The notes under the pieces: generated by a model | What the model was told of the DNA's origin: nothing | The model's database searches: none | The model's input: the letters and a program-made list of their open reading frames with translations, nothing else | Program-made: the position numbers and the translations under genes | Part shown: positions 24,967-36,082 of the stretch, piece after piece | Layout: each line of letters opens with the position of its first letter | Numbering within the stretch: the first letter of the stretch is position 1 | Source: an uncultured Actinomycetes bacterium | Lineage (GTDB): Bacteria > Actinomycetota > Actinomycetes > Nanopelagicales > Nanopelagicaceae | Length of the DNA: 38,420 bases | Direction: 5' to 3' | NCBI GenBank assembly: GCA_903953805.1 | Contig: CAJBLC010000007.1 | Coordinates: 1 to 38,420, forward strand

Positions 24967-25836
24967 CTAAGTCGCTAAGGATACCAGTTCCTCAATTACC
25001 CGTTCGACGGAGTCATTGACCAGTACGTGGTCGAACTCGCCTGCCGCAGCCATCTCTTGCTCAGCCAGTGCCAATCGGGCTGCCTGGCGTTCAGGCGAAT
25101 CGGTCCCTCGCCCTGTGAGTCGAGCCTTCAATTCATCCCAGCTGGGAGGCGCGATAAAGACCAATAAGGCGTTGGGATCGCTCTTTCGAACCTGACGGGC
25201 TCCCTCAATTTCAATCTCTAGCAGAACATTCTTACCCAGGGCGAGCCAACTCTCGATAGGTGCGTGTGGGGTCCCATAGCGAGCCCCAGCAAACTCTGCC
25301 CACTCTAAGAAGGAGCCATCAGCGATCGATTGATCAAACTTCGAATCGTTATAAAAATAGTAATCAATCCCGTCTCGCTCCCCCTCACGAGGGTCGCGAG
25401 TTGTCGCTGAAACTGAGATCCAGAATCGGGGATCATTTCGAAGGGTTCGCGTAATCGTGCTCTTACCTACGCCACCAGGCCCAGACATCACAATGAGAGT
25501 TCCACGAGCCGGATCGATCTTCGACACTGATAACTCCCCTCTCAACGCTGACACTTGATTAGTACCTAGACCAGCAATCCGTCTCGTGGGAGAGATCTTC
25601 GCTCTCTCCATGATTGCTTCCGCTCGAAGTTTACCCACACCAGGTACGGACTCAAGCAATTCACGAACTCGCATCTTCCGTATCGCAGGATCTACGGAGT
25701 TGATGAGATCGAAAATGCTGATCTCCCCATTCCCCAGTGACTTCTTTGCTGCCGCTCGAACTTGCCGAGCTGCTATTGCCGCACTATTTGCTGCTGCTCG
25801 CTCTGCTGGTGAGAGTTTAGGCGGAAGTGGCGTCAT
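24967..25836 (-). CDS. gmk: mIHF-guanylate kinase fusion protein
   Basis: A single uninterrupted frame of about 289 residues encodes two complete proteins. Residues about 5-103 are the actinobacterial integration host factor mIHF, with an N-terminal alanine/arginine helix, the H2TH DNA-binding segment LLESVPGVGKLRAEAIM and the C-terminal SPTRRIAGLGTNQVSAL. Residues about 108-289 are guanylate kinase, with P-loop GPGGVGKST (119-127), SVSATTRDPREGE, YYFYNDSKF and GTPHAPIESW. Gmk makes GDP from GMP; mIHF is an essential nucleoid protein in mycobacteria. In relatives these are adjacent separate genes. I chose ATG at 25836 (GGGAG 7 nt upstream), overlapping pyrF by 20 bp. An internal GTG with a strong ribosome binding site lies at the junction, so free Gmk (186 residues) may also be made. 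Confidence 0.93.
   Translation of the reverse strand: MTPLPPKLSPAERAAANSAAIAARQVRAAAKKSLGNGEISIFDLINSVDPAIRKMRVRELLESVPGVGKLRAEAIMERAKISPTRRIAGLGTNQVSALRGELSVSKIDPARGTLIVMSGPGGVGKSTITRTLRNDPRFWISVSATTRDPREGERDGIDYYFYNDSKFDQSIADGSFLEWAEFAGARYGTPHAPIESWLALGKNVLLEIEIEGARQVRKSDPNALLVFIAPPSWDELKARLTGRGTDSPERQAARLALAEQEMAAAGEFDHVLVNDSVERVIEELVSLAT
25525..25540 (-). promoter_or_regulatory. internal ribosome binding site and GTG at the mIHF/Gmk junction
   Basis: Reading on the minus strand, AGGGGAG is followed by 6 nt (TTATCA) and an in-frame GTG (codon 104 of the fusion). This is one of the best Shine-Dalgarno/start pairs in the window and sits exactly between the two domains. It would start a 186-residue Gmk of normal length. 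The TTA codon just before is one base from TAA, so an ancestral mIHF stop may have been lost here. Confidence 0.6.
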
Positions 25837-26515
25837 CGAGAATCTCCCGAGCCTTTGCACTCATCGCACCGAGACCTTCGCTGTAAAGAGATGTTATTGG
25901 ACGACCTATCACGAGATAGGTTGAACCGGCATTGATTGCATCTCGAGGAGTCATGACTCGATTTTGATCACCGAGGGAACTTCCTGCAGGTCGAACTCCG
26001 GGAGTAATGATGGTTGTCTCTCTACCGATTCGCTCTCTTATCGATGAAACTTCTAAAGGTGAGCAAACGATCGCTCGCGCGCCAGAGTCAACAGCAAGTG
26101 AAGCAAGGTTGATGGCGGATTCGAGCGGAGGCTGAGAGTAACCAATCGCGCGGACATTCTCAGCGGTGAGCGAGGTGAGGATTGTTACCGCGGTGATATC
26201 AATCGAAGGAGCAGCGGTAGCCGCGGCAGCGATCATCTCCGATCCACCGGAGGCATGAACGGTAAGAAACTTTGGTTTGATATGCGAGATTGCTTTAGTC
26301 GCACTCGCCACTGTATTTGGAATATCGTGCAATTTGAGATCCAAAAAGAGATCGAATTCACCGGCACTTCGTAACCTCTCGATCCCCTTATCGCCAAAAG
26401 TTAAGAAGAATTCAAGTCCGGCTTTATACGTCTTAATGGATTCATTGGTCGCTTCAATCCATGAGCAAGCAGTATCGAGATTGTCGGTATCTAGGGCAAG
26501 GATCAGTGGATTCAT
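25817..26515 (-). CDS. pyrF: orotidine 5'-phosphate decarboxylase
   Basis: PyrF converts OMP to UMP, the last step of pyrimidine synthesis. The 232-residue TIM barrel shows LALDTDN at the N-terminus and the catalytic signature DLKLHDIPNT near residue 59. The phosphate-binding region GVRPAG...VIGRPIT is near the C-terminus. This is the E. coli-like class rather than the longer mycobacterial type. Its ATG overlaps the pyrD stop by 4 bp and its 3' end overlaps the mIHF-gmk start by 20 bp, tying pyrimidine and guanylate synthesis to one message. Confidence 0.97.
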   Translation of the reverse strand: MNPLILALDTDNLDTACSWIEATNESIKTYKAGLEFFLTFGDKGIERLRSAGEFDLFLDLKLHDIPNTVASATKAISHIKPKFLTVHASGGSEMIAAAATAAPSIDITAVTILTSLTAENVRAIGYSQPPLESAINLASLAVDSGARAIVCSPLEVSSIRERIGRETTIITPGVRPAGSSLGDQNRVMTPRDAINAGSTYLVIGRPITSLYSEGLGAMSAKAREILDDATSA

Positions 26516-27447
26516 GGAAGGACCTCTCTATGGGCGAAACCGATTGCTTCATTAAGGGAATTGAAACCCTTTTCGATGAGGATCTCTTCTAATTCCTGCT
26601 TTACCTTGATAACAGCCGTTGGATTTCCAAACGTGGCAGTACCAACTGATACAGCATGAGCTCCCGCCAAAATGAATTCGAAGGCATCGCGACCAGATGT
26701 AATGCCACCCATTCCCAAGATTGGTAAGTGTGGAAGGGCTGCGTGCACTTGATAGACCGCTCTCACTGCTACAGGCCGAATCGCAGGACCACTAAGTCCA
26801 CCGGTCTTCTGCGCCAATTTAGGGAGCATTGAATTCGTATCAATAACCATCCCAAGAAGAGTGTTGATCAGTGCGACGCCATCTGCACCGGCGTGTGACA
26901 CCTCTTTAGCGATCGACACGATATCTGTGACATCAGGAGAAAGTTTGGCAATGATTGGCAACTCTCCCCCGATATTTCTTCGGACCGCCTCAATAGCAGC
27001 ACGGGCTGTCTCTGGATGGCAAGAGAAGACCATTCCTCGATTTTCAACATTGGGACATGAAATATTTACTTCGATTCCCACTACGCCGGGAAGATTGCGC
27101 ATCTTTCTCGCAAGTACCGCGTAATCTTCGACGGTTTCACCCGCAATACTGACAAAGGTTCGTGCGCCTTGTGCAGCGAGCCATGGAATGTCATTCTCTA
27201 GGAAGTAATCCACTCCCGGTCCTTGAAGTCCGATCGAATTGAGCATTCCACTTGGAGTTTCGGCCATTCGTGGAGTGGCACGACCGCTTCGTGGCTTGAT
27301 CATGATCGACTTGGTGACGATCGCACCCAACTCGGTCAATGGGAAGAATTGAGAGAGTTCTTTACCAGAGCCCGCACAACCGCTGGCGGTTAATATCGGA
27401 TTTGGAAGTTGTGCGCTACCGAGTGATGCTGCAAATGAGAAGCTCAT
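26512..27447 (-). CDS. pyrD: dihydroorotate dehydrogenase, class 1B catalytic subunit
   Basis: PyrD oxidises dihydroorotate to orotate with FMN. The 311-residue barrel carries NPILTASGCAGSG, TKSIM, NSIGLQGPG and the FMN-binding VSIAGE region. The active-site cysteine of class 1 enzymes lies in the NISCPNVENRG segment. The directly upstream pyrK gene, overlapping by 4 bp, marks it as class 1B, which passes electrons to NAD+ through PyrK. Mycobacterium instead uses a membrane class 2 enzyme elsewhere on its chromosome. Confidence 0.96.
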   Translation of the reverse strand: MSFSFAASLGSAQLPNPILTASGCAGSGKELSQFFPLTELGAIVTKSIMIKPRSGRATPRMAETPSGMLNSIGLQGPGVDYFLENDIPWLAAQGARTFVSIAGETVEDYAVLARKMRNLPGVVGIEVNISCPNVENRGMVFSCHPETARAAIEAVRRNIGGELPIIAKLSPDVTDIVSIAKEVSHAGADGVALINTLLGMVIDTNSMLPKLAQKTGGLSGPAIRPVAVRAVYQVHAALPHLPILGMGGITSGRDAFEFILAGAHAVSVGTATFGNPTAVIKVKQELEEILIEKGFNSLNEAIGFAHREVLP

Positions 27448-28289
27448 GCGCCGAAAGTCCCTTCCGGAATACGTCGTTTGCTATCCCAAATAACGCGCGA
27501 CCCATCCATTACCGGTCCATCGATACAGGAGCGGAGCATACGGATAACGCCATCATCTCCCTTCACCGGAAGAACACAGGTCATGCAGACACCGATTCCA
27601 CAGGCCATTGATTCTTCGACAGCGCATTGATGCAAAATTCCATAATTATCGCTTATGGCAGTGATTGCCTGAAGCATGCCCATTGGACCACATGAGTAGA
27701 TGATCTCAATCTCATTCTCTTCGATGAGTTTAGGAAGAACATCGGTAATCTGTCCCTTGATGCCAGTGCTTCCGTCATCGGTTGTGAGAGTCAGACTCGA
27801 AACAGAACGTTTACCGTCGAGTGGAGCATAGATCTTTGCGGCGGTACTTGCGCCAAGGACCATATCTACTCGACAACCCCGACTCTTCAAGAGCTCTGCA
27901 AGACCAAAGAGTGGTGCGCTTCCATAACCGCCACCAACGAGGAGCGCTCGCACCGGTTCTGTAGGGATACCAAAATGCGTTCCAAGAGGTGCGACCATAT
28001 CGACAACCGCGTGAGGTTCGAGTGCGGTTAACCAACGACTTCCTTGGCCATGAGGTGCAACAACGAGTTCGATGAGACCTCCTTGGGGTCCCTTCTCCGT
28101 TGATCGGTAGATCGCAAAGGCCCTTCGGAGAACCATCGCTGAACTTTCACCACCTACAGCGATAGCGACAAAGTTTCCTGGTCGGGCTTGAGCCGCTAAA
28201 TCACCAACGGAGAAGACCATATGGTGATAGGCGCCAACCTTTTTATTGCTTATAAGTTCTGCGGAGATTTGAGCCGCTCTCGAGTTCAT
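27444..28289 (-). CDS. pyrK: dihydroorotate dehydrogenase electron-transfer subunit
   Basis: PyrK carries FAD and a 2Fe-2S cluster and transfers electrons from PyrD to NAD+. The ferredoxin-reductase-like fold shows an FAD-binding region FVAIAVGG...VLRRAFAIY, an NAD-binding [17 protein letters not shown] and the C-terminal cluster motif [20 protein letters not shown] with a further Cys in LRSCIDGP. I use the ATG at 28289, which overlaps the carB TGA as ATGA and has AGGAG 7 nt upstream. The ORF-track start at 28310 lies inside carB. This gives 281 residues. Confidence 0.94.
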
Positions 28290-31200
28290 CGCCCGGCTCC
28301 TGCCTGCCACTCTTGTAGCGATTCAATATCAAATTCTCTGCTTTGCATTTCGCGGATGCCCTCAACCGCCGCCTTAAATCCAGCGATCGTCGTGATGATG
28401 GGAATCGAACGCTGAACGGAAGCAGTTCGAATTAACCAACCATCTTGGCGTGATCCCCTGCCGAGTGGTGTATTAATCACCAGGTCAACCATTGATGTTG
28501 TGATGATATCTACAGCTGAAAGTCCATCAGATTGGGAATCGGAGTTCTTTCGGACTTGGCGGGATTGAACTCCATGTGAAGAGAGGTAATCGTGGGTTCC
28601 GGCTGTCGTAAAGAGCGTGAAGCCCAGATCTGAGAGCGCACGAGAAGGCTCAAGTGCATCAGCCTTATCTCTATCGGAGAGTGAGATAAAGACAGACCCA
28701 GACATCGGAAGAGGCCCGAAAGATGAGATCTGACTCTTGGCATAGGCCTGTCCAAAAGTGTTCGCGATGCCCATCACCTCACCTGTCGATCGCATCTCAG
28801 GTCCAAGAACTGAATCAACTCCAGTTCCATCGACTCTACGGAATCTATTCCATGGGAGGACCGCCTCTTTAACAGAGACGCCATTAGCAACACCGTCACC
28901 AGAGAGTGGAAGGACGCCTTGATCGCGAAGTTGCTGAATAGATACTCCGGTGGAGATGAGCGCCGCAGCCTTCGACAGCGGGTTTCCAGTCGCTTTACTG
29001 ACAAAGGGAACTGTTCGAGATGCTCGCGGATTTGCTTCGATAACGTACAACGTGCCATCTCTCGTGATCGCATACTGGATATTGATGAGGCCACGTACGC
29101 CGACATTGAGAGCAATCTTGTGGGTTGCTTCTCGAATCTCCGCAATCTTGGAAAGGTCAAGAGTAAAACTTGGAAGGACGCAGGCTGAGTCACCTGAGTG
29201 AATTCCTGCTTCTTCAATATGCTCCATGACTCCACCCAAGAAGAGTTCTGTCCCATCATAAAGCGCATCAACGTCAATCTCGATCGCATCATCGAGGAAT
29301 CTATCGATCAAAACAGGGTGATTTGGAGTAATCTCCGTCGCCTTTACGATGAACTCTTCGAGCGATTCATCGTCATAGACGATCTCCATACCGCGACCAC
29401 CGAGGACAAATGATGGGCGCACTAAGACTGGGTAGGTAATTTCTTTAGCAATCTTCTTCGCCTCTTCGAAGGTATTAGCCATTCCAAATTCGGGCGCCTT
29501 TAGATTACTGATTTCGAGAATCTTGCCGAATTCACCGCGATCTTCAGCTAAATCAATTGCATGCGGGGATGTACCGAGGATTGTCACTCCGGCGTCGAGA
29601 AGTCCGCGAGCAAGTCCAAGAGGAGTCTGGCCGCCAAGTTGGGCGATCACTCCAAGTACTGGACCAGCTTGGGTTTCAGCATGGATTACTTCAAGGACAT
29701 CCTCGAGCGTGAGCGGCTCAAAGTAGAGTCGATCAGATGTGTCGTAATCAGTGGAAACCGTCTCTGGATTGCAATTCACCATAATCGTTTCATACCCAGC
29801 CTCGCGAAGCGCGAAGGCAGCGTGGACGCAGGAGTAATCGAACTCCACTCCTTGGCCGATTCGATTGGGACCACTGCCGAGAATAAAGACGGCAGTTTTG
29901 GTGCGGGATCGTACTTCTGTTTCTTGGTCATATGACGAGTAGTGGTACGGCGTATGCGCTTCAAATTCTGCAGCACATGTATCTACCGTCTTGTAGACCG
30001 GTCGAATATTGAGTCGTTCTCTGGTCAATCTGATCTCAGACTCGGAGATATTGCGGAGTGAGGCAAGTTGTGCGTCCGAGAAGCCAAGGCGTTTTGCGCT
30101 GCGGATCAGCACTTCAGAAAGTTCAGCGGCACTCTTGATCGAATCGGCCATCTCATTGATGAGCTGAATTTGTGAGAGGAACCATGGGTCGATCTTTGTC
30201 TGAGCAAATACCTCATCGACGCTTGCACCCAGACTCATCACCTTTTGAACCTGTTGGAGGCGATATTCCGTTGGAATCTTAATCTGCTCCATGAGTTCAC
30301 CACGTAGAGCAGCATCTGTTCCCCACGAGAAACTCATCCCCTTCTTCTCAACCGAGCGAAGTGCCTTTTGAAGCGCTTCTGGGAAACTCCGACCGATCGC
30401 CATTGCTTCACCAACGGATTTCATCGTTGTTGTCAGGCGCTCATCAGCTTCCGGGAATTTTTCAAAGGCAAACCGAGGAACCTTAACAACCACATAATCG
30501 AGAGTCGGTTCGAAGGAAGCGGGTGTTGACTTCGTAATATCGTTCTGAATCTCATCAAGACTGTACCCGATTGCCAATTTCGTCGCGATTTTTGCGATTG
30601 GAAAACCCGTTGCCTTGGATGCGAGAGCAGAAGAGCGGGATACTCGTGGGTTCATCTCGATGACAATGATTCGGCCATCCTTGGGATTGACCGCAAATTG
30701 AATATTACATCCGCCAGTGGCCACTCCGACTTCACGAATAATCTCGATCGAGAGGTCGCGCAACTTCTGGTATTCGACATCTGTGAGAGTCATTGCTGGT
30801 GCTACCGTGATTGAGTCACCCGTATGGACGCCCATCGGATCGAAATTTTCGATGCTACATACGATGACGACGTTATCCTTATGATCCCGCATGACCTCGA
30901 GTTCGTACTCTTTCCACCCAATGATGGATTCCTCAAGGAGAACTTCAGTTGTCGGACTATGGCGAAGTCCAGCTCCAGCGATAAGTTCCAACTCGGCCTG
31001 GTCGTACGCGATTCCGGAACCTAATCCGCCCATTGTGAATGAAGGGCGAACAACAACCGGATATTTGAGCTCTTCTACACCGGCTAAACACTCTTGCATG
31101 GAATGCGCGATTATCGATTTAGCCGAGTCTCCCCCAACCTTCGCAACAATTCCCTTAAAAGTTTCGCGATCCTCACCACGGTTAATCGCATCGACATTTG

Positions 31201-31552
31201 CTCCGATCAGTTTGGTGCCATATTTTTCAAAGGAACCACGCTCATACAGTTGCATGGCAGCATTCAAAGCTGTCTGTCCGCCCAAGGTCGCAAGCACCGC
31301 ATCTGGGCGTTCCTTCTCGAGAATCTTCTCAATAATCTCTGGAGTAATTGGCTCGATATAGGTTGCATCGGCAAACTCAGGGTCGGTCATGATCGTTGCG
31401 GGATTTGAGTTGATCAAGATGACTCGAATTCCCTCTTCACGAAGAACTCGACACGCTTGAGTTCCAGAGTAATCGAATTCGCAGGCTTGGCCAATCACGA
31501 TTGGTCCGGAACCGATAACAAGAACACTCTTAATGGATAGATCTCTAGGCAT
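28286..31552 (-). CDS. carB: carbamoyl-phosphate synthase large subunit
   Basis: CarB makes carbamoyl phosphate from bicarbonate, ammonia (supplied by CarA) and two ATP. The 1088-residue protein shows duplicated ATP-grasp halves: [21 protein letters not shown] near the N-terminus and [20 protein letters not shown] near residue 560, with an allosteric domain at the C-terminus (about residue 935 on). The ATG at 31552 is preferred over the TTG at 31564 because it gives the usual [14 protein letters not shown] start. It overlaps carA by 8 bp. The product serves both pyrimidine and arginine synthesis. Confidence 0.98.
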
Positions 31553-32675
31553 TGTGTACCGCAACCTTCCTGGTCATGAGTTCAGCGAAGTGGTCAAAGA
31601 GATATGCAGCATCATGCGGACCAGCAGCAGATTCTGGGTGGTACTGGACACTGAAGGCCGGCCGTTCAAGTAATTCCAGACCTTCCACAACACCGTCATT
31701 GAGGCAGATATGGGAGACAAACCCTGCGCCAAAGACCGTTGTGAAGTTTGCGTCAACGGGTGCATTAACCGCGAATCCGTGATTGTGGGCGGTGATTTCA
31801 ACTGTTCCATCGCGCAGATTCTTTACTGGCTGATTGATGCCTCTATGGCCAAAGGGTAACTTGTAAGTAGTGAACCCAAGGGCGCGACCAAGAATCTGAT
31901 GACCAAAACAGATACCGAAAAGAGGTATTGATTCTGAGAGAAATTCTCTCACTAGGGTAACCATCTCATCCATAGTTGATGGATCTCCCGGACCATTCGA
32001 TAGGAAGATTCCGTCAGGGGAGATCGATTCAATCTCCTCCTTTGTTGCACTCAATGGAAAGACGTGAACTTCCATTCCTCTTTCAGACATGTGGCGAGGT
32101 GTTGCCGACTTGATACCTAAGTCAATTGCGGCAACGGTGAATTTTTTCTCAACATCGACTGGAGTAGGCACCACATATTTGACTGGAGTTGATACATCCG
32201 ATGCAAGGAATGCCCCCGCCATAGATGGCATTTCACGAACCTTCAAGACCATTTCCTCGCGTGGACGCTCTTCGCCGGAGAATATTCCGACTCTCATAGA
32301 ACCGCGATCTCGCAGATGACGGGTAATCGCGCGAGTATCAACGCCTTGAATTCCGACTATTCCTGCATCTATGAGGGCAGATTCCAGAGATTGATCAGAA
32401 CGCCAATTGGAAGTTCGTGGCGATGGATTCCGAGCGACAAAACCGGAAACCCAGATCTTCGTCGACTCCATATCCTCTGCATTAAAACCAGTGTTACCGA
32501 TATGCGGAGCGGTCATAATGACGATCTGCTTGTGATAACTAGGGTCTGTCAAAGTCTCTTGATACCCAGTCATTCCCGTTGAGAAGACAGCTTCACCAAA
32601 GGTTTCTCCGTGGCATGCCCATGACTCCCCCTCAAAGATTGCTCCATCATCGAGAACAAGGTATGCCTTACTCAT
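31545..32675 (-). CDS. carA: carbamoyl-phosphate synthase small (glutaminase) subunit
   Basis: CarA hydrolyses glutamine and channels ammonia to CarB. The 376-residue protein has the N-terminal CarA domain ([30 protein letters not shown]) and a class I glutamine amidotransferase domain with nucleophile Cys in [15 protein letters not shown] and catalytic His/Glu in [12 protein letters not shown]. It is full length. It overlaps both pyrC and carB by 8 bp, so all three are likely translated in a coupled way. Confidence 0.98.
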
Positions 32676-33963
32676 GTACAGCTCCGATCAGAATCTGGTT
32701 CTTCATTACTAGTCTGCCGTTGAAAATCGTATGTATGACATCACCGGTCAATTCAAAACCATGGAATGGGGTGTTTCTACTCTTTGAAAGGAGAAGTTCG
32801 CGATCAACAATCCATCTCTTTTCTGGATCTACGATTGCGATATTCGCAATCGATCCTTTCTTGAGATCCAAACCGTGGGCTGTATAACCACCGATTTTCG
32901 CAGGATTTTTGGACATAACCTCAATCAATCGAGTCCAACTCATAAGGCCAGTTTCGATCATTGTTGTGATCACGATTCCTAAAGCTGTCTCTAGGCCAAC
33001 CATTCCGAAGGCCGCAGCAGCCCACTCGCAATCCTTATCTTCCGCTGGGTGTGGTGCATGATCCGTTGCAACGATATCGATCGTTCCATCCGCCAGTGCG
33101 GCGCGGAGCGCTTTCACATCTTCATCTGTTCGTAGTGGAGGATTTACTTTGTAGATCGGATCATAGGTACGGGCAGTTTCATCGGTAAGGAGTAAGTGGT
33201 GAGGGGTTACCTCAGCTGTTACCTGCATGCCTTGAGCCTTTGCCCAGCGAATAATCTCTACCGAGCCCTTGGTTGAAAGGTGGCAGATGTGGAGACGACT
33301 TCCTAGCGAATGCGCAAGAAGGATATCTCTCGCAATAATCGCTTCTTCAGCGATCGCCGGCCAGCCAGCTAAGCCAAGCTGAGCTGATACAACGCCCTCG
33401 TTCATTTGTGCACCTTCGGTAAGGCGTGGATCTTGGGCATGCTGAGCGATAACTCCCCCGAAACCTTTTACATATTCGAGCGCTCTCCTCATAAGGAGAG
33501 AGTCGCTTACGCACTTACCATCGTCGCTGAAAATTCTGACCTTTGCCGCAGAGTCGGCCATCGCCTTCATTTCGGAGAGTTTCTTTCCCTCAAGTCCTTC
33601 ACTGACGGCTCCAATAGGAAAGACGTCGCAAAGACCAGCTTCACGACCGAGTCGCCATACTTGTTCCACGACTCCCGCAGAATCGGCCACCGGAGATGTG
33701 TTCGCCATCGGAGATATCGCAGTGAATCCTCCGCGAATAGCAGCTCTGGAGCCAGTCAGGACCGTTTCGGCATTCTCTCGTCCTGGCTCGCGCAGATGTG
33801 TATGAAGGTCAACAAATCCCGGAAGAATCCTGAGTCCTGCGCAATTGATCAGCTCTCCCGAAGACGACAACTCTTGGCCTATCTCAGTGATGATTTCACC
33901 AACGATGCGAATATCGGCAACTGACCCATCCGGAAGGAGGCCGCTTTTCAAAAGAATTTCCAT
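32668..33963 (-). CDS. pyrC: dihydroorotase
   Basis: PyrC cyclises carbamoyl aspartate to dihydroorotate. The 431-residue class I amidohydrolase shows the metal-binding HxH in VDLHTHLREPG near residue 54, GGFTAISPMANTSP, the HICHLSTKGSVE region and the metal ligand Asp in VATDHAPH near residue 305. It lies 4 bp after pyrB and overlaps carA by 8 bp, in the same pyrR-pyrB-pyrC-carA-carB order as Mycobacterium. Confidence 0.97.
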   Translation of the reverse strand: MEILLKSGLLPDGSVADIRIVGEIITEIGQELSSSGELINCAGLRILPGFVDLHTHLREPGRENAETVLTGSRAAIRGGFTAISPMANTSPVADSAGVVEQVWRLGREAGLCDVFPIGAVSEGLEGKKLSEMKAMADSAAKVRIFSDDGKCVSDSLLMRRALEYVKGFGGVIAQHAQDPRLTEGAQMNEGVVSAQLGLAGWPAIAEEAIIARDILLAHSLGSRLHICHLSTKGSVEIIRWAKAQGMQVTAEVTPHHLLLTDETARTYDPIYKVNPPLRTDEDVKALRAALADGTIDIVATDHAPHPAEDKDCEWAAAAFGMVGLETALGIVITTMIETGLMSWTRLIEVMSKNPAKIGGYTAHGLDLKKGSIANIAIVDPEKRWIVDRELLLSKSRNTPFHGFELTGDVIHTIFNGRLVMKNQILIGAVHE

Positions 33964-33967
33964 CGCT

Positions 33968-34927
33968 TTACGCCCCTAGCGTCTCGTGAGTGGAGGAAAT
34001 GTTCGGACCTCCTAGAAGTTGATAGAGGGCTGCCATTCGCACTACAACCCCATTTGATACTTGATCGATCACTACCGATCGAATGGAATCTGCACTTGCG
34101 GCACTGATCTCAAGGCCGCGATTCATTGGCCCTGGGTGCATAACGATGGCATTGCTCTTGAGTCTCTTCAGTCGATCTCCATCGAGACCATACCCCTTTG
34201 AGTACTCACGTCCATTTGGGAGGAAGGAATCATTCATGCGTTCAAGTTGAACTCTGAGCATCATGACAACATCTAACTCTTCGAGATTCTCATCGAAATC
34301 GTAAGAAGATCTCACTCCCCAAGAATCAATCGTTGACGGTAGCAAGGTTGGCGGAGCGATTAACGTAACATCCGCACCCATTTTTCTTAGTAGGAGAACA
34401 TTGCTTCGAGCAACTCGCGAATGGAGGATATCTCCAACGATGGCTATCTTTAATCCACTAAAAGTTGTTAACGTTGACCCAAAATGCTTACGAATCGTGA
34501 AAGCATCGAGAAGCGCCTGGGTAGGGTGTTCGTGGGTACCGTCACCTGCATTAATTACCGATGATTCAATCCAACCTGATTCAGCCAATCGTTTTGCCGC
34601 GCCAGATGCGGGGTGACGTATAACAATTAGATCTGCGCCCATAGCCTCAAGAGTTTGCGCTGTATCTTTTAGGCTCTCTCCCTTGCTGACGCTTGATCCC
34701 TTGGCCGAGAAGTTTGTGACATCAGCGGACAACCGCTTCGCAGCAGATTCAAAGGAGAGTCTTGTTCGGGTGGAATCTTCAAAGAAGAGGTTTACAACAG
34801 TCCTGCCGCGTAGCGTGGGTAGCTTCTTTACCGATCCAGAGGTCAACTTCTCTAGCTCTGATGCAGTATCGAGAATGCCCACAATCTCGAGTTCCGAGAG
34901 ATCGGCTATTGAAAGTAGGTGTTTCAC
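33968..34927 (-). CDS. pyrB: aspartate carbamoyltransferase catalytic subunit
   Basis: PyrB joins carbamoyl phosphate and aspartate, the committed step of pyrimidine synthesis. The 319-residue protein has the carbamoyl-phosphate loop [13 protein letters not shown] near residue 50, the [12 protein letters not shown] motif near 138, and MHPGPMNRG near the C-terminus. No regulatory PyrI is encoded nearby; control is more likely through PyrR. The GTG start overlaps the pyrR stop as GTGA. Confidence 0.97.
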
Positions 34928-35454
34928 TCTTCCACCTCAAAAATTTCCACAAGGTCCTCGCCATCAATCTCCGAGAGTTTGACCTTGACGATCTCCTTGA
35001 GAGAGGTAGGAATGTTCTTTCCCACGTAATCGGGCCTTATCGGCAATTGACGGTGACCTCTGTCGACGAGTACTGCCAATTGAACCGAACGCGGTCGACC
35101 TAACTCACCTAGCGCATCAAGAGCAGCGCGTATCGTTCGACCGGAGAAGAGCACGTCATCAATCAGTACGATGTCACGACCTTCAACACCGCCTTGGGGC
35201 ATGACTGTCTCAGCCAAGGGTCTTGGAGCTCGCAGCCGGTGGTCATCGCGATGCATCGTGATATCTAATGAGCCGACAGGTACCGGACCTTCGATGCTTT
35301 CAAGAATGCCTGCCAAGCGGGAGGCTAAATATCTCCCCCGCGTTGGGATACCCATGAGAGAGATCGAATCGATCCCGTGGTTTCGTTCGATGATTTCGTG
35401 AGAGATGCGCTTAAGAGCGCGGGCGATCTCCGCCTGATCCAAGATAAGACTCAT
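34924..35454 (-). CDS. pyrR: pyrimidine operon regulator / uracil phosphoribosyltransferase-like PyrR
   Basis: PyrR senses UMP/UTP versus PRPP, binds pyr mRNA and can have weak uracil phosphoribosyltransferase activity. The 176-residue protein has the PRPP-binding motif [20 protein letters not shown]. The ORF track extends to 35565, into the leader. The ATG at 35454 gives the family start [14 protein letters not shown] and has AAGGAG 4 nt upstream. It opens the pyrR-B-C-carA-B-pyrK-D-F operon. A PyrR-binding hairpin lies immediately before its own ribosome binding site, implying autoregulation of the operon at translation initiation. Confidence 0.96.
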
Positions 35455-35466
35455 ACAACTCCTTCG

Positions 35467-35482
35467 CCGCCTCTCTGGACGG
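35467..35482 (-). promoter_or_regulatory. PyrR-binding RNA hairpin in the pyr leader
   Basis: On the minus strand the leader reads CCGTCCAGAGAGGCGG. The core UCCAGAGAGGC matches the PyrR-binding consensus (UCCNGNGAGGY) known from Bacillus, and CCG/CGG closes the stem. The element ends 2 nt before the pyrR AAGGAG. No antiterminator/terminator pair fits in the short leader. PyrR bound to UMP would therefore most simply block ribosome access, as proposed for mycobacteria. Confidence 0.82.
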
Positions 35483-35504
35483 TTCGTTAAAGGATTACTG
35501 CGAG

Positions 35505-35510
35505 AGGGTA
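35505..35510 (-). promoter_or_regulatory. weak candidate -10 box (TACCCT) for the pyr operon
   Basis: TACCCT fits TAnnnT and would place the transcription start about 44 nt before the pyrR ATG, leaving room for the PyrR hairpin. The -35 region (TCGCTT at 17 bp) is poor. It abuts an imperfect inverted repeat in the pyrR/bldD divergent region. Confidence 0.35.
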
Positions 35511-35527
35511 TCACCTGTGGATAGTGA
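35509..35527. repeat. imperfect inverted repeat in the pyrR-bldD divergent region
   Basis: On the plus strand TATCAC-CT-GTGGATA forms an imperfect palindrome with one bulged base, and TCACC...AGTGA frames it. It lies directly upstream of the candidate pyr -10. The half-site words resemble those reported for BldD, but the arrangement does not fit the published palindrome cleanly, so an operator role is only a possibility. Confidence 0.3.
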
Positions 35528-35550
35528 AAGCGAGAATTCCGCCTTTCCCC

Positions 35551-35556
35551 TAGCCT
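35551..35556 (+). promoter_or_regulatory. candidate leaderless -10 box (TAGCCT) for bldD
   Basis: TAGCCT ends 7 nt before the bldD ATG, with no ribosome binding site in between. The hexamer and spacing are identical to those of the aldo/keto reductase gene. Confidence 0.5.
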
Positions 35557-35563
35557 GCCGGAC

Positions 35564-36082
35564 ATGGAAAATCCAGATCTTATGAGTGAAAAGGGTGAGC
35601 TCCTCGCGGGGAGTGAGCCAGAGTTGCTTGCCCTCGGTCAATCTCTCCGGAGTATCCGTAAGCAGAAGGGGCTCACCCTTCGAGATATCGAGAGTGATTC
35701 ACAGGGCCGCTGGAAAGCTGTGGTTATTGGCTCATATGAACGTGGTGACCGAGCCTTAACACTGAAGAAGGCGGTTGCGCTCGCCAGGTATTACAACGTT
35801 CCACTCGATCAACTTTTAGGCCTGTCTCAAGCCTCATCCAGCCAATCTGGAGCTCTTTCAATCAATCTGGTAGCCCTTCGAAGGAGCAGTACACAGTTAC
35901 CTGCGGCGCTTACCCGCTTCGCTCAGGAGATTTGTCGACGCCGTTCTGATTGGAACGGGGAAATGCTCTCGCTTCGAACAAGTGATCGAGCCTTCTTGGC
36001 GATTATTCTCGACATTAACGAAGAGAGCCTTGATCGCTGGCTGAATGAGAATGAACTACTACTGAGTGTTCCAACTACTTAG
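35564..36082 (+). CDS. bldD: BldD-like transcriptional regulator with cyclic-di-GMP-binding signature
   Basis: BldD is the master repressor of development in Streptomyces; cyclic di-GMP makes it dimerise on DNA. The 172-residue protein has an XRE-type helix-turn-helix at about 24-87, including the very BldD-like SQGRWKAVVIGSYERGDRA. After a short linker comes a C-terminal domain (about 95-168). That domain keeps the ligand signature as Arg127-Ser-Asp129, eight residues, then Arg138-Thr-Ser-Asp141 (RxD-X8-RxxD). It lies between pyrR and nusB, the Streptomyces position (SCO1488-1490). It diverges from the pyr operon and its stop overlaps that of convergent nusB by 4 bp. Confidence 0.93.
   Translation: MENPDLMSEKGELLAGSEPELLALGQSLRSIRKQKGLTLRDIESDSQGRWKAVVIGSYERGDRALTLKKAVALARYYNVPLDQLLGLSQASSSQSGALSINLVALRRSSTQLPAALTRFAQEICRRRSDWNGEMLSLRTSDRAFLAIILDINEESLDRWLNENELLLSVPTT

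Follow-up and report, generated by a model that had tools for sequence, protein, structure and literature searches.

How might a pyrimidine operon be controlled by PyrR if its leader is short and holds no terminator? The question is raised by the minus strand of a 38,420-nt stretch of DNA (assembly GCA_903953805.1, contig CAJBLC010000007.1; this whole stretch is called the window), in which a short leader precedes pyrR at the head of a pyr operon. In Mycobacterium smegmatis, the pyr operon reportedly carries a PyrR-binding sequence at its first ribosome-binding site and is repressed at the level of translation, as Fields and Switzer are said to have described. It is very likely that a PyrR-binding hairpin in the window leader likewise regulates translation of pyrR and, via coupling, of the genes that follow in the operon. 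This makes the leader a well-supported further case of a mechanism already published for mycobacteria.

The leader hairpin and its operon

The letters of the interval 35459-35482 (-) are CCGTCCAGAGAGGCGGCGAAGGAG. Within the leader, UCCAGAGAGGC occurs exactly at 35479-35469 (-), 15 nt 5' of the pyrR ATG (35454). This bears out an earlier sequence-only reading, according to which the loop matches the Bacillus PyrR target. The same reading had placed the end of the match 2 nt before AAGGAG, whereas UCCAGAGAGGC ends 4 nt (GGCG) before it and only the upper stem GGCGG ends at a distance of 2 nt. The hairpin is bipartite: UCCAGAGAGGC forms the top part, while the 3' arm of the lower stem consists of most of the Shine-Dalgarno (SD) sequence AAGGAG (Table 1).

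The Bacillus PyrR target is ARUCCAGAGAGGYU, of which loop, upper stem and bulge are required, and the purine-rich bulge is a PyrR determinant (PMC7430163). The hexaloop of the window agrees with this target, and UCCAGAGAGG corresponds exactly to the loop and upper-stem consensus ARUCCNGNGAGGYU, with a flanking A-U pair changed to C-G and pairing kept. The internal loop is asymmetric, with AACGAA on the 5' side and a single C on the 3' side. Both this internal bulge and the lower stem are present in the predicted fold, and both align to RF00515, the Rfam PyrR family. The hairpin overlaps the first ribosome-binding site of the operon and no terminator is found, which corresponds to the structural part of an M. 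smegmatis-type site.

Table 1. Features of the pyr leader, the pyr operon and neighbouring genes in the window
Feature	Position	Strand	Basis and remarks
Candidate -10 box TACCCT	35505-35510	-	implies transcript start at ~35497-35499
Lower stem 5' arm UCCUUU	35489-35494	-	CCUU invariant in 69 distinct relatives; pairs with GAAGGA in predicted fold
Internal loop AACGAA	35483-35488	-	AA invariant; other letters and length vary in relatives
Upper stem 5' arm CCGUC	35478-35482	-	compensatory C-G to U-A and G-C to A-U in relatives
Hexaloop CAGAGA (consensus CNGNGA), predicted PyrR recognition loop	35472-35477	-	C, G, G, A invariant in 69 distinct relatives
Upper stem 3' arm GGCGG	35467-35471	-	covariation and predicted fold
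Lower stem 3' arm GAAGGA	35460-35465	-	predicted fold and alignment of relatives
pyrR Shine-Dalgarno AAGGAG	35459-35464	-	4 nt 5' of ATG; 5 of 6 bases within lower stem
pyrR, 176 aa, ATG start	34924-35454	-	NCBIfam NF003547 PyrR, 247 bits (cut-off 230)
pyrB, GTG start	33968-34927	-	NF002032; 4-nt overlap with pyrR stop
pyrC	32668-33963	-	NF006836
carA	31545-32675	-	TIGR01368
carB	28286-31564	-	NF003671
pyrK-like electron transfer subunit	27444-28310	-	NF000799, 1e-39, below curated cut-off
pyrD	26512-27447	-	NF005574
pyrF, final pyrimidine gene of the run	25817-26515	-	NF001273
BldD-like regulator	35564-36082	+	divergent from pyrR
Apparent mIHF-Gmk fusion	24967-25860	-	one frame

Neighbouring genes of the operon overlap by 4-25 nt or stand 4 nt apart. 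Solved PyrR structures from Bacillus and Mycobacterium match the PyrR of the window with E values of 1e-51 to 1e-58; the protein keeps DRGHRxLPIRxDYVGKN of Bacillus PyrR, and in the ALTR of Bacillus PyrR the T is replaced by K.

The gene order at this end of the window is aroB-aroQ-efp-nusB (-), a divergent bldD-like gene (+) and then pyrR-pyrB-pyrC-carA-carB-pyrK-pyrD-pyrF (-), where the genes that we take to be aroB and aroQ were named from their sequences alone. The BldD-like regulator shares a 109-bp intergenic region with pyrR and scores 135 bits against NCBIfam TransRegBldD, for which the cut-off is 250. Another minus-strand frame joins an actinobacterial integration host factor (residues 14-109) to a guanylate kinase (residues 120-295). 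For this apparent fusion, a single match covers the two parts in almost every genome of the same genus, and other families mostly give separate matches.

Conservation, covariation and specificity

PyrR is present in 53 of 60 relatives and in 143 of 148 genomes of the class. For the leaders of the class we used a non-random sample of 97 (the best 57 by PyrR similarity and 40 picked across families, none dropped), and the hairpin was found 5' of pyrR in every one of them, in 71 distinct versions. A covariance model of 37 positions (R1) was built from 69 distinct sequences, comprising relatives and the window itself. Of 80 named loci, 78 have a match to R1 5' of pyrR, among them Planktophila, Streptomyces, Actinomadura and Brevibacterium; a 79th locus gives a weak match on the opposite strand. 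Loss of the loop in relatives, which the sequence-only reading had named as grounds for giving up its proposal, is thus not what these loci present. Among named relatives, those closest to the window are uncultured freshwater actinobacteria, Candidatus Nanopelagicaceae and Planktophila.

The covarying stems that had been suggested as a further check were found in the upper stem and not in the lower one. One upper-stem pair changes from C-G to U-A in leaders of three different families (L011, L048 and L089), G-C becomes A-U in two leaders, and U-G becomes U-A in three and U-A or C-G in four; the basal pair varies between C-G, G-C and U-A. RNAalifold recovered only four upper-stem pairs from the large alignment, therefore covariation was counted on the named full structure. 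Doubly changed cells of the upper stem numbered 31 compared to 12 in shuffles, a comparison that ignores kinship and in which 0 of 500 shuffles were as high. In the trimmed alignment there were 17 double changes versus 7 in shuffles, and the upper-stem double changes exceeded all shuffles and all slid controls. The lower stem shows no double change in the trimmed alignment; since it is nearly invariant, covariation is silent on this part. Its 5' arm CCUU is invariant, while the sequence just upstream varies, and this invariance fits pairing with the SD or contact with PyrR alike.

Some additional structures were seen among the relatives. A second loop-like match in L037 at -124 failed the stricter hairpin-plus-AAGG pattern and was rejected. 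Many relatives of the same genus have an additional short hairpin immediately 5' of the PyrR hairpin; in ten leaders (L002-L005, L007, L008, L011, L012, L014 and L017) its stability was beaten by only 0-3 of 200 shuffles. Its sequence differs among these relatives (e.g. GCAAGGGAAACCTTGC in L007), and it is absent from the window. A metagenome-assembled acidobacterial genome (L197) carries a variant hairpin, GCGGACCGAGAGUCCGC with the arms CUUCUUU/AAAGAGG, shortly 5' of pyrR, to which R1 gives no match.

The exact 11-mer has a chance expectation of ~0.02 in the window (2 x 38420 / 4^11). With up to 2 mismatches, 15 sites were counted in the window compared to 15.3 expected, and TCCNGNGAGR occurs 86 times in the whole assembly versus 57 times for the reversed control. 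Because the bare motif with mismatches lies at chance level, the case rests on context: the motif by itself is weak evidence, and the full hairpin in its position is the exceptional part. A chance match of a short motif could appeal to the mismatch counts, but the element is kept in all sampled relatives of the class, with covariation, and because of this conservation we regard chance as refuted, with a probability that is practically nil.

R1 gave a single strong match in the same assembly (1.31 Mb, listed as 89% complete, with a single pyrR), directly 5' of pyrR with 56.3 bits and E = 2.5e-13. No further PyrR targets were detected by this search of the assembly, the next-best match having E = 0.76. 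The Rfam model RF00515 scored 27.5 bits, below its threshold of 54 bits, although loop and both stems were aligned. It spans 115 positions and includes an attenuator region with the terminator, which the window leader does not have; due to this, the gathering score is not a defining feature of the binding hairpin itself. R1 finds the element where the Rfam model scores under threshold.

Probable translational repression and alternative readings

With its 5' end placed from the candidate -10 box, the leader would measure about 45 nt. In 45 of 97 leaders, TANNNT lies 9-16 nt 5' of the lower stem, compared to 7 expected in shuffled sequence, and many of the remaining leaders have it 17-26 nt 5' of this stem. 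In folds of transcripts of 70-85 nt, the first five letters of the SD have pairing probabilities of 0.7-0.98. With 105 nt, an alternative fold appears in which the loop region pairs with early pyrR codons and the pairing of the SD is 0.3-0.65. The 91-nt fold is no stabler than shuffled sequence (z = 0.36), and the 43-nt hairpin is modestly stabler (z = -1.18). Among loci of the class, a start codon stands 7-19 nt 3' of AAGG in 58 of 58 that have PyrR mapped and in 37 of 40 shorter ones. A long open reading frame (34924-35565) would make the hairpin part of a coding region; we rejected it, since the ATG behind the SD is retained in relatives and conservation is lacking 5' of the hairpin.

The window leader has the anatomy that the M. 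smegmatis translational model needs. Our observations comprise a conserved hairpin placed over the SD, covariation in its upper stem, the absence of a terminator and the adjacent pyrR. By analogy to mycobacteria and Bacillus, from which PyrR binding, nucleotide dependence, repression and polarity are taken, an abundance of pyrimidines would probably allow PyrR to switch translation off. In the presence of plentiful uridine nucleotides, nucleotide-dependent binding of PyrR to the hairpin would stabilise the lower stem, which would then hold the SD and leave the 30S subunit unable to start on pyrR. Since pyrB and the later genes overlap or nearly abut, they would fall along with pyrR through lost coupling and polarity. 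If uridine nucleotides become scarce, PyrR would leave and ribosomes would open the stem. For the window itself, this amounts to ordinary feedback control. A block of translation initiation with polarity was already the model of the sequence-only reading, and it gains support from the start codon right after the SD, the lack of a terminator and the overlapping operon genes. That reading was largely right; what it missed are the lower stem with the SD and the published mycobacterial precedent.

Transcription attenuation as in Bacillus, in which bound PyrR favours a terminator between hairpin and pyrR, has in its favour that the hairpin is the Bacillus anti-antiterminator and that 20 of 58 loci from other classes of the phylum show a terminator-like hairpin behind it, with pyrR starting at a distance. 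However, no antiterminator or terminator lies between hairpin and gene in the window, where no terminator-like hairpin was detected in 35380-35620, and the pyrR start 15 nt past the loop motif leaves no room for one. The sequence-only reading had also judged the leader too short for an obvious switch of this type. With a terminator in 0 of 58 class loci, attenuation is highly improbable here and close to refuted. About equally improbable is a hairpin that acts independently of PyrR, either by stabilising the mRNA or by damping translation constitutively. Pairing of the SD is indeed predicted without any protein, but the letters of CNGNGA are kept more strictly than a plain stem needs and agree with the known target of PyrR, and all 97 class leaders have the element 5' of pyrR.

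A steric block by PyrR on the upper stem-loop alone, with the lower stem serving PyrR contact and the SD overlap being incidental, is unlikely but deserves more weight than attenuation or PyrR independence. The conservation of the lower stem counts against our model in so far as it could reflect contact with PyrR instead of control of the SD, because the Rfam consensus of the Bacillus-type attenuator has the same CCUU/AAGG arms. Attenuator-type leaders, in which these arms do not serve as the SD of pyrR, keep them as well, and the lower stem lacks double changes. Judging by the Rfam consensus, the SD-like arm seems to have belonged to the PyrR site from early on and not to have been added for the SD. 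On the other hand, a protein that needs the internal loop would keep the lower stem closed regardless, and the SD is paired in the predicted fold. Steric block and SD sequestration are thus hard to separate from sequence.

Possible output modes of the PyrR hairpin across the phylum

PyrR-dependent translational repression in M. smegmatis is attributed to Fields and Switzer (2007, J Bacteriol 189:6236), as cited in PMC13328217 and PMC10672894. The window resembles this case in its PyrR-binding sequence at the first ribosome-binding site of the operon and in the short leader lacking an antiterminator and terminator. It differs in belonging to a Nanopelagicaceae-like freshwater lineage that is known here from sequence, and the comparison was made to the published description rather than to the leader sequence of M. 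smegmatis. With the Bacillus pyr attenuators and RF00515, the window shares the loop CNGNGA, the upper stem with a U-G pair, the internal loop and the lower stem CCUU/AAGG. Unlike these attenuators, it has one site instead of three and no antiterminator or terminator, and the 3' arm of its lower stem is the SD. The mycobacterial mechanism is thereby extended to a Nanopelagicaceae-like freshwater lineage and, as judged by sequence, to practically all of the class.

Across the phylum, R1 has matches in 193 of 297 genomes. Leaders of other actinobacterial classes share this hairpin 5' of pyrR (e.g. L237, L241 and L245), but in many of these leaders, unlike in the window, a terminator-like hairpin comes next and pyrR starts 60-130 nt downstream. 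Among 58 leaders of other classes with PyrR mapped, pyrR starts right after AAGG in 19, a terminator-like hairpin with a distant start is present in 20, and 19 were assigned to neither; these counts are approximate, as terminators were detected by a custom script with a few weak matches and several loci were read by eye. In the class of the window, all 58 leaders are SD-coupled. One may tentatively suppose, at somewhat less than even chances, that a single PyrR hairpin has two outputs: it would act through a terminator in several other classes and through SD sequestration in the whole class of the window. The window would then be one of many translational examples. A switch of mode would be easy under this supposition, since AAGG, the lower-stem arm in the attenuator form, already resembles an SD. 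The phylum-wide comparison allows a direct test of a switch from one type of control to the other. Six leaders of other classes (L237, L241, L242, L244, L245 and L246) keep the AAGGAG-like arm with no pyrR start behind it, and a terminator-like hairpin follows.
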